The position numbers and the translations under genes are program-made. A model generated the notes under the pieces. It ran no database searches. It saw only the letters and a program-made list of their open reading frames with translations, and was not told where the DNA came from. A DNA stretch of 64,000 nucleotides from assembly GCF_002727125.1 (NCBI RefSeq), contig NZ_NHOA01000008.1, forward strand, positions 2,658 to 66,657, in the 5' to 3' direction. Below, piece after piece: positions 44,890 to 63,105 of this stretch. Each line of letters opens with the position of its first letter. Position 1 is the stretch's first letter. This DNA is from Halorubrum persicum (GTDB lineage: Archaea; Halobacteriota; Halobacteria; Halobacteriales; Haloferacaceae).

Positions 44890-45005
44890 GAGGCTGGGGA
44901 GGCGTGAGGTGCCGTGCGGTGGGCGCGTGAGGCCGGATTTGTCCACACGTTGGCCGCGACTAACACGGATCTCTCTCAGAGTCGACTTGCGTAGTTAGGA
45001 ACCGC

Positions 45006-45092
45006 ACCGGCCGAGACTCCGCGCGAGCGCAGCGAGCGGGGAGTCAGGGCGGCGCACGACCAAAGGGAGTGCACCGGCCGAGATTTGGACTC
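45006..45092. repeat. 87-bp direct repeat, copy 1, ending in a tRNA-Gly 3' fragment
   Basis: Matches 45184-45270 at all but four positions. Its last 22 bases (gcaccggccgagatttg and on) copy the 3' acceptor and T-arm of the tRNA with one mismatch, then diverge. Confidence 0.85.
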
Positions 45093-45144
45093 AGAATCAG
45101 ACGTGCTCGCTCACTGCGTTCGCTGCGCGCGACTGATAGCGTTC

Positions 45145-45178
45145 AAATCACTCGGTGATTTCTCTCACTACGTTCGAG
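45145..45178. repeat. Two adjacent palindromes between the direct repeats
   Basis: aaatcac-tcg-gtgattt (45145-45161) is a perfect inverted repeat. It is followed by tttctc and gagaaa arms ending near 45181. Confidence 0.7.
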
Positions 45179-45183
45179 AAAGA

Positions 45184-45270
45184 CACCGGCCGAGACTCCA
45201 CGCGAGCGCAGCGAGCGGGGAGTCAGGGTGGTGCACGACCAAAGGGAGTGCACCGGCCGAGATTTGAACT
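45184..45270. repeat. 87-bp direct repeat, copy 2, running into tRNA-Gly
   Basis: Second copy, 178 bases from the first. Its last 22 bases are the real 3' end of the tRNA gene. Confidence 0.85.
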
Positions 45271-45319
45271 CGGGTTGCAACCATGGCAAGGTTGCGTGAT
45301 ACCACTACACTACCGGTGC
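45249..45319 (-). tRNA. tRNA-Gly(GCC)
   Basis: 71 nt on the minus strand. The acceptor stem pairs gcaccgg with ccggtgc, discriminator A, no encoded CCA. The anticodon stem caacc/ggttg encloses loop ttgccat with anticodon GCC. T-arm gagttcaaatctc. It reads GGC and GGU, heavily used here. No intron. Confidence 0.96.
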
Positions 45320-61984: not shown

Positions 61985-63105
61985 GAAACGACAAAGGCCA
62001 GTACGCGAGTCCCGCAGATAAACAGATTTCGGGGGAAATGGAAGAGCTACTCGGACGTTACCTCGAAAGCTTACGGGAGCAAAAAGACCGGACAAAGGAT
62101 TCGACGGTCAATACACGTCGGCGTGAAGTACGATACTGGTTAGCCTTCTGCGAATCGAACGACATCGACCCCCTTGCTGCCACTACCGAGGATGTCAGAG
62201 GGTATATCCAATTGAATTCTAATCTGGCCGATACGACTGTTGGTTCGTACTATCGGTCAGTACAATCGTTTTACAGCATCGTTGCGAATGACGCCAGAGA
62301 CGATCAGCTTGAGCTCGTTAATGGACATCCTTGTGAGGATAGTAATACGATTGATCTGAAGGATGATTATAACATCTATGAAAATAAAGCCGAGTACAAG
62401 ATCCAGCATGACCTCACTGCGAGCAATAGTGATGAATTGCGGGAAGGTACGAGTGAGGTTCTAGCACTCAAGCCGGAACAGGTGGAGTCTCTGTTTGATG
62501 CCGTCCCGGGGAAAACGCCTCAAGCAAAGCTTCGAAACGAGATCGCCGTCCGGTTAAACTGGTATACCGGATGTCGTAGTGTGGAACTGTCGCGCCTAAA
62601 GATTGAGAATATCGACTGGGAAGAATGCAGTATTGATGTTAGGAGCGCAAAATTAAGCGTGAAAGAAAACAGCGGATTGATTCGGCGCGATGTGTACTTC
62701 CCAGAGGAGTTCAGGTTCCAGTTAAAACGGTGGTGTGAAAGAATCCGGCACGCATTTTCGGCAGAAGCTAAGCCGGATTCTGGGAATATCCTCGTCACAA
62801 CTCATAACGATGAGATGTCTGGTCCACAGATCAATGATGTCGTCAAGAAAGCAGCTCGGAACGCAGAGGTCCAGCGACCGCTACGCCCGCCTAATCCTGA
62901 TCCAGATGACGAAGTCAAAGAGTGGTTTGTAACCACCCATCGTATCCGGCGATCTGCGATTTCACACTGGGTGAACGATTGTGAGTCATTGGGTCTTCAC
63001 CAGGTGAGAAGAATCGCCGGTCATGCTCGTATTGAGCAGACGATGGAATATGTTGAGGATGACGATGAACAGATAGCAGTAGACTATCAGAAGGCGATGC
63101 GGTGA
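61981..63105 (+). CDS. Tyrosine recombinase / integrase (XerC/D-like)
   Basis: 374 residues. N-terminal SAM-like DNA-binding region (TVNTRRREVRYWLAFCESND and on to about 105). The catalytic domain carries R199 (YTGCRSVELSRL), Lys near 224 (RSAKLSVKE), H320-xx-R323 (TTHRIRRSAISHW), H348 (AGHARIEQTM) and nucleophile Y357 (MEYVEDD). All key residues are intact, so it is probably active. Low GC against its surroundings marks it as acquired. It would integrate or excise the element to its right, beyond the window. Confidence 0.94.
   Translation: MRNDKGQYASPADKQISGEMEELLGRYLESLREQKDRTKDSTVNTRRREVRYWLAFCESNDIDPLAATTEDVRGYIQLNSNLADTTVGSYYRSVQSFYSIVANDARDDQLELVNGHPCEDSNTIDLKDDYNIYENKAEYKIQHDLTASNSDELREGTSEVLALKPEQVESLFDAVPGKTPQAKLRNEIAVRLNWYTGCRSVELSRLKIENIDWEECSIDVRSAKLSVKENSGLIRRDVYFPEEFRFQLKRWCERIRHAFSAEAKPDSGNILVTTHNDEMSGPQINDVVKKAARNAEVQRPLRPPNPDPDDEVKEWFVTTHRIRRSAISHWVNDCESLGLHQVRRIAGHARIEQTMEYVEDDDEQIAVDYQKAMR

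Follow-up and report, generated by a model that had tools for sequence, protein, structure and literature searches.

A stack of hairpin cassettes behind a Halorubrum tRNA-Gly gene, one of many at haloarchaeal tRNA 3' ends

The tRNA-Gly(GCC) gene in the window (the whole stretch of 64,000 nt that was analysed) is followed by three short hairpin units, each of which closes with a copy of the tRNA-Gly 3' end (13 nt, 24 nt and 13 nt). This array is one of many tRNA hairpin-cassette stacks in haloarchaea and not the scar of one large element. With a probability of roughly 0.5, we read it as an alpha-beta-alpha array of miniature non-coding att-site cassettes that accreted at the tRNA-Gly 3' end and were inserted, exchanged and lost through tRNA-specific tyrosine recombinases acting in trans.

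The array at the window locus

The anchor gene lies on the minus strand at 45248..45319 and was detected by ARAGORN and by the Rfam tRNA model (RF00005, 65.4 bits). Read along the tRNA-Gly strand, from 45319 to 45248 for the gene itself, the order is alpha (45247-45183), beta (45182-45069) and alpha (45068-45004), and the flank beyond the second alpha leads to an aldo/keto reductase-like gene. The first alpha (45183..45247, minus strand, 65 bp) is a short unit with the hairpin GACTCC..GGAGTC; its last 13 nt, at 45183-45195, copy the tRNA 3' end with 1 mismatch. The beta unit (45069..45182, minus strand, 114 bp) is a long unit and consists of an inverted copy of the tRNA-Gly T-arm (45141..45157, minus strand; CACCGAGTGATTTGAAC on the tRNA strand), a core and a 24-nt direct copy of the tRNA 3' end (45069..45092, minus strand, 1 mismatch). 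The core, AGTCGCGCGC...GAGCACGTCT at 45099..45134 on the minus strand (G000:C52:47756-47791), was located by pattern search and is common to other tRNA loci. The second alpha (45004..45068, minus strand, 65 bp) is a near copy of the first and ends in a 13-nt copy at 45004-45016 (0 mismatches in 13). At the window locus alone, the inverted T-arm has an ungapped score of 9, which is within the range of other tRNAs (maximum 10). The surroundings are haloarchaeal: a search with the sugar-dehydrogenase-like neighbour gene returned 28 loci, 25 of them from Halorubrum or haloarchaeal MAGs and the remaining 3 bacterial at 41-45% identity. The second tRNA-Gly(GCC) gene of this genome (G000, contig C29, locus L085) is followed by one alpha unit nearly identical to the window alphas, which suggests exchange between the two loci. 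Against phage records, the window locus matched 18 entries, all from Streptomyces phages, of which 17 are labelled tRNA-Gly and the last has no annotation; among the plasmid records, none of the matches listed (20 of 34) reached at least 80% query cover.

The original prediction described two 87-bp repeats 178 bp apart. The repeat is real and measures 88 nt (45005-45092 and 45184-45271, 95% identical, 179 nt from start to start), the gap between the copies being 91 bp. One repeat is made of the last 24 bases of the tRNA and the first alpha, the other of beta's 24-nt copy and the second alpha. The second repeat therefore does end in the gene and the first in the 24-base copy, as had been proposed; also borne out were the presence of only one real gene, the other copy diverging 5' of the T-loop, and the short acceptor/T-stem copies at the start of each repeat, which are the 13-nt ends of the alphas. 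The inverted T-arm copy between the repeats and the recurrence of the same architecture at many tRNA genes were both absent from that description. A repeat of 88 nt at 95% identity is not chance, and the sequence differences between the two copies argue against duplication during assembly. Repeats of 90 bp are described as artefacts in some draft haloarchaeal genomes in the available passages of PMC7911831. Because the same arrays occur in assemblies of one or two contigs (G026 and G054 with one each, G019 with two), an artefact was rejected as the general cause. At one H. saccharovorum locus (L109), a duplicated stretch broken by N resembles the kind of artefact described in those passages.

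Two origins had been put forward for the repeats, a decayed attL/attR pair and a tandem duplication of the flank. Direct repeats of the tRNA 3' end, as expected of an attL/attR pair, are present, and islands with integrases occur at other Halorubrum tRNAs; element genes or their remnants are absent from between the repeats, which are separated by only 91 bp. The same kind of unit lies at 12 of the 45 tRNAs of this genome, at many tRNAs of its relatives and in other families of the order. When three SNJ2-like integrases were used as tblastn queries, no relative was found in the window or in 25 orthologous tRNA-Gly loci, some of which stop at contig ends. A single integrated island at tRNA-Gly that lost its interior is thus disfavoured by the surveys of the genome and of the genus, and we consider it highly improbable. 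Tandem duplication fared better in part: because the first and third units are near-identical, some of the repeat may be plain duplication. The proposal that the copied part of the tRNA serves as an attachment core also stood, since this part corresponds to known integrase targets and elements with tyrosine recombinases lie at tRNA 3' ends elsewhere in Halorubrum.

Units at tRNA 3' ends across haloarchaea

We surveyed the genes found by the Rfam tRNA model in four genomes, G000 (the genome of the window), G026, G019 and G054, the last of which belongs to another family than Halorubrum. The last 30 nt of each gene were searched in its own 400 nt downstream and upstream, with ungapped scoring (+1/-2) and a threshold of 13. 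Raw downstream matches were obtained for 13/45, 23/46, 15/47 and 25/43 genes, respectively. The first gene of each tandem tRNA-Asp pair was scored negative in G000, G026 and G019, and no further downstream match was confined to another tRNA gene. With neighbouring tRNAs so discounted, 12/45, 22/46, 14/47 and 25/43 genes, or 73 of the 181, have a copy of their own 3' end downstream. Raw upstream matches numbered 1, 1, 2 and 0 and all came from neighbouring tRNA genes (Asp pairs; Pro before Phe), leaving 0/181 upstream copies in the four genomes. A partial copy of a different kind, of the first 50 nt of tRNA-Val(CAC) (5' not 3', score 38), was seen upstream of that gene on contig C20 of G000 (L084). 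The downstream copy in G000 fits its own tRNA better than all tRNAs for other amino acids in 11 of 12 cases, the exception being Pro(TGG), where a real Phe gene lies within the searched stretch. Three further haloarchaeal families were sampled from the 30 best-scoring loci (G055, G056 and G058, with 10, 8 and 10 tRNAs); downstream copies were found for 6/10, 4/10 and 2/8 tRNAs and upstream copies for 0/28. Elsewhere in the phylum, none of the 58 sampled non-haloarchaeal tRNAs (best-scoring loci plus 20 stretches picked by hand from the listed matches) had such a copy, the 2 formal matches both lying inside a neighbouring tRNA-Gly gene, and the 6 haloarchaeal tRNAs within that set gave 2 matches.

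The anatomy of the units was compared over 148 distinct examples from the four surveys, 28 sampled tRNAs and the tRNA-Gly locus in named Halorubrum species. With 26 nt compared, the tRNA copy starts at -21 to -26 in 95 of the 148 (mode -23/-22, the T-loop edge), at -18 to -20 in 3 and at -13 to -17 in 50 (mode -14, in the T-stem). The first two groups are called long units (98, median length 120 nt) and the third short units (50, median 82 nt). In the available passages of PMC8371274, integrases are described as targeting the anticodon loop, T-loop and 3' end of tRNAs, and the SNJ2 att site as 14 nt; those of PMC7911831 describe a 13-bp att at tRNA-Pro in Hrr. coriense. The two main classes of copy start fit these integrase sub-sites and the 13-14 nt att of haloarchaeal pleolipoviruses, as far as these sources describe them. 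Units form palindromes in which the inverted arm tends to match the tRNA that they follow. The inverted copy spans -21 to -10 (medians) in long units, with a score of at least 7 in 89/98, and -12 to -2 (medians) in short units (43/50). Its fit to the own tRNA exceeded the mean of the other tRNAs in 69 of 76 genome-tRNA cases, and its specificity is moderate: the own tRNA was in the top tenth for 38 of the 98 long units, the median share of other tRNAs that scored as well was 0.18, and mono-shuffled unit bodies matched the inverted-arm score in 11% of trials on average. In some Tyr and Phe units (L175, L142 and L276, by eye among the matches listed), tRNA-body-like pieces from the anticodon arm to the T-stem precede the hairpin, which gives these units the look of tRNA copies with a break in the T-arm.

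The beta core pattern was present in 43 of 52 Halorubrum genomes, and its reversed control gave no match. All 18 core matches (4, 9 and 5) in three tRNA-mapped genomes sit behind a tRNA on the same strand. Thirty fetched loci held 31 core matches, 25 of them behind an intact tRNA, 5 behind a tRNA 3' fragment and 1 behind a tRNA-Ala cut by the contig end. Two of the fragment cases lie behind the 3' half of tRNA-Gly(TCC); in the other three, the fragment is 13-16 nt long and has an integrase-like gene before it. These three integrase-like frames are all above the PF02899 cut-off, with one above that of PF00589 and two slightly below it. For this one pattern and core family, the dispersed distribution of a MITE or REP was not found, with 18/18 and 31/31 matches at tRNA ends, fragments or the cut tRNA. 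The original prediction had named relatives that all carry the same two repeats, or a repeat dispersed genome-wide, as counting against it; not all relatives carry the same two repeats (they have 0 to 3 units), and the unit family does recur genome-wide, with its core only at tRNA 3' ends or fragments. Two beta-core patterns run against viral contigs gave 0 and 3 matches, and the 3 loci had no tRNA by ARAGORN and no tRNA end around the matches; carriage by viruses was therefore rejected. Imperfect hairpins with an arm complementary to the target could also arise by single-strand transposition through an HUH-type enzyme (IS200/IS605 or REP-associated), with the inverted arm as a guide that pairs with the target. 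This we hold to be very unlikely, as the beta core is found only at tRNA 3' ends or fragments and, to our knowledge, long direct copies are not a hallmark of that family.

The stem that flanks the core covaries. Over 38 distinct flank pairs, the Watson-Crick fraction across four stem pairs was 0.72; 2000 shuffles averaged 0.39 and reached 0.55 at most. The first four pairs were paired in 0.95, 0.95, 0.71 and 0.26 of cases, so that only three are well paired, and the second was T-A in 18, C-G in 12 and G-C in 6 of the 38. Cores with a 16-nt interior, such as the window core, have the apex GC-GA-XX-GNA-YY-GA-GC, a motif that we take to be very stable in single-stranded DNA, and XX/YY was matched in most of 16 distinct cores (GC/GC 7, AC/GT 5, CC/GG 1). 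This covariation would suit RNA elements, that is, hairpins transcribed behind the tRNA and processed as tRNA-like pieces or small RNAs, as has reportedly been proposed for the E. coli tyrT (RtT) repeats. Long units also fold more stably on the tRNA strand in 73 of 97 cases. However, 45 of the 50 short units had their more stable fold on the other strand, and the outer arms of long units contain more A.C than G.T mismatches (24 versus 11), the opposite of what RNA pairing on the tRNA strand would give. In an Rfam scan, only tRNA scored above the gathering threshold and RtT RNA was not matched, and the presence of arrays varies from species to species. For the outer arms, mismatch type and strand folding thus give no support to RNA pairing on the tRNA strand as the main constraint, although the long units fold better there, and we find it quite unlikely that the units are RNA elements.

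Variation between relatives, a foreign cassette and proviruses

The tRNA-Gly locus was read in 25 relatives. One sequence stops 12 nt behind the tRNA and one holds an N run; the others range from 0 units to alpha-beta-alpha. For example, alpha-beta-alpha is present in H. sodomense, beta-alpha in strain GN11 and in H. salipaludis, beta in H. coriense and alpha in H. tebenquichense, and units are missing from H. lipolyticum and H. kocurii. At tRNA-Leu(CAA), G019 is 94 bp longer than G000 with flanks matching on both sides, a clean pair of occupied and empty sites. In G026, the first hairpin of the G019 cassette sits directly behind this tRNA, which also fits an unequal exchange. At tRNA-Arg(CCT), the alpha that directly follows the tRNA in G019 and G026 is separated from it in G000 by a beta. 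Array pairs among these three genomes were matched by anticodon; clean empty sites are few, since flanks matched in 12 of the 62 pairs and in none of the other 50, and just 8 of these 12 were in register. The missing matches may reflect flanks that evolve fast or loci that are not orthologous.

One cassette is foreign to its array. The tRNA-Lys(TTT) array of G026 holds an Arg-type alpha that is 88.5% identical over 96 nt to the tRNA-Arg(CCT) stretch of the same genome. At the left joint, letters that the two tRNAs share (TTCGAATCCC) lead the Lys-array copy into the Arg end; at the right joint, the unit stops at ATCCC and the Lys end follows. This arrangement is the product that would be expected from recombination at the T-loop and T-stem, and homologous recombination over the common letters could also have produced it. 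It is the single clear case among the loci scanned, the other matches displayed being mostly isoacceptors or chance. At six loci in G054 and G058, picked by eye from 18 displayed matches of which the rest were doubles or inverted arms, a beta copy is split at -14/-13 by a further two-hairpin unit.

These data also bear on an origin by tandem duplication, unequal crossing-over, gene conversion and template switching at tRNA ends, with no site-specific enzyme and with inverted copies made by snap-back copying. Identical tandem units were seen at several loci (Lys in G026, Phe and Tyr in G019, among the matches listed) and show plain duplication, and the near-identical first and third units of the window, the hairpins swapped at tRNA-Leu(CAA) and the scarcity of clean empty sites among the array pairs point the same way. 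Repeat-mediated deletions are reported for Haloquadratum in the available part of PMC3119063. On the other hand, enzyme-free copying would not lead us to expect unit boundaries clustered at two tRNA positions, copies on the downstream side only, a core common to different tRNAs or the Arg cassette within the Lys array. We regard this explanation as doubtful overall, with some weight nonetheless.

Integrase-bearing elements use the same boundaries as the units. In G062 (L341, G062:C18:7800-21200), tRNA-Arg(TCT) is followed by ~12 kb of provirus with a Rep-like and an integrase-like gene; at the far end of this provirus are a 13-nt tRNA fragment and, adjoining the fragment, a beta unit. A second provirus remnant starts directly behind the 22-nt copy of that unit. 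The left ends of the two, one behind the tRNA and the other behind the unit copy, are 73% identical over 113 nt, and the Rep-like fragment of the remnant is 90.5% identical over 232 aa. Either, then, a provirus integrated at the copy, or a provirus was there first and the unit later went in between it and the tRNA. In G027, ~21 kb separate a tRNA-Tyr gene from its fragment and unit, and in G016, ~8 kb lie between tRNA-Gly(TCC) and its 3' half; the G016 stretch contained no relative of the three SNJ2-like integrases. An integrase adjoins the tRNA fragment at loci of G062, G067 and G027. Beside the window array, where an SNJ2-type provirus would have an integrase next to its att site, no tyrosine recombinase was found. 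A Phage_integrase match in the window, at about 62467-63069 on the plus strand (G000:C52:65124-65726; 58 bits, in a 382-aa frame), is ~17 kb from the array, and this frame too was without a tblastn match to the three queries. Phage_integrase matches numbered 15 in G000, 6 in G026 and 6 in G054, a few of them being parts of one gene.

A cassette model and its relation to known systems

In the model that we favour, a cassette begins directly behind a tRNA 3' end and closes with a new copy of that end; therefore, the tRNA remains whole and a new target is provided. Site-specific recombination would insert, exchange and remove cassettes, at the T-loop for long copies (about 22-24 nt) and at the T-stem/acceptor for short ones (about 13-16 nt), with homologous recombination between repeats assisting. 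The enzymes would be tyrosine recombinases encoded elsewhere, on proviruses, on plasmids or by the host, the intermediate would presumably be circular or folded, and the differences between relatives would include gains. Site-specific recombination is the most likely source because the copies have preferred start points, the duplicated part of the tRNA is the one that integrases restore, one foreign cassette was found and the boundaries are shared with proviruses. Against the model count the absence of a recombinase beside the window array, the scarcity of clean empty sites, the plain tandem duplications, the moderate specificity of the inverted arm, the two beta-core patterns having no real match in viral contigs, and the size of a cassette circle, which would have to be tiny at about 80-120 bp. 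Least well explained is the inverted arm, as ordinary integration would not predict one. The palindrome may allow folded DNA to present a double-stranded version of the target; alternatively, the inverted arm may neutralise the extra tRNA end by pairing with it.

SNJ2-type and other pleolipovirus proviruses at tRNAs share with the units the target and a similar short copy (13-14 nt as printed in the available passages of PMC8371274 and PMC7911831), and they join at the cassette boundaries. In contrast to the G062 provirus, with its ~12 kb and its integrase, the units carry no gene, and their median lengths are 82 and 120 nt. Haloarchaeal and bacterial PATEs, MITEs and REPs are likewise short, palindromic and non-coding but are dispersed, unlike the beta core. 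The E. coli tyrT/RtT repeats, which are reportedly 178-bp units at one locus, also stand in tandem behind a tRNA gene and each hold a tRNA 3' end; they differ in that the haloarchaeal arrays occur at 73 tRNA genes in four genomes, with no Rfam match to RtT.

In form, the arrays resemble the attC cassette arrays of integrons, where tandem units each close in a palindromic site and vary in order and number between relatives, and where the folded strand of attC rebuilds a double-stranded target. In contrast to integrons, the window array has no adjoining integrase and no cassette gene, and its outer arms match the host tRNA; neither an integron integrase nor an attI was found beside the array, the only Phage_integrase match listed for the window being the distant one given above. 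It is conceivable, and in our judgement unlikely, that the arrays belong to an integron-like haloarchaeal system that lacks cassette genes, in which folded palindromic cassettes would rebuild a double-stranded T-arm target, a tyrosine recombinase would dock them at tRNA genes, and arrays would grow, shrink and swap between tRNAs. No paper recognised as describing tRNA hairpin-cassette arrays was found in the literature searched, which was covered in part and with few subscription journals.

If this reading is correct, a quarter to over half of the tRNA genes in the four surveyed haloarchaea would be docking sites for gene-less mobile DNA, and the arrays would be a natural record of integrase activity at tRNA genes. 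Folded attachment sites are known from integrons and phage CTX, and the haloarchaeal units would offer a testable case beyond these two. For annotation, they would carry the warning that short tRNA repeats need not mark a lost island.
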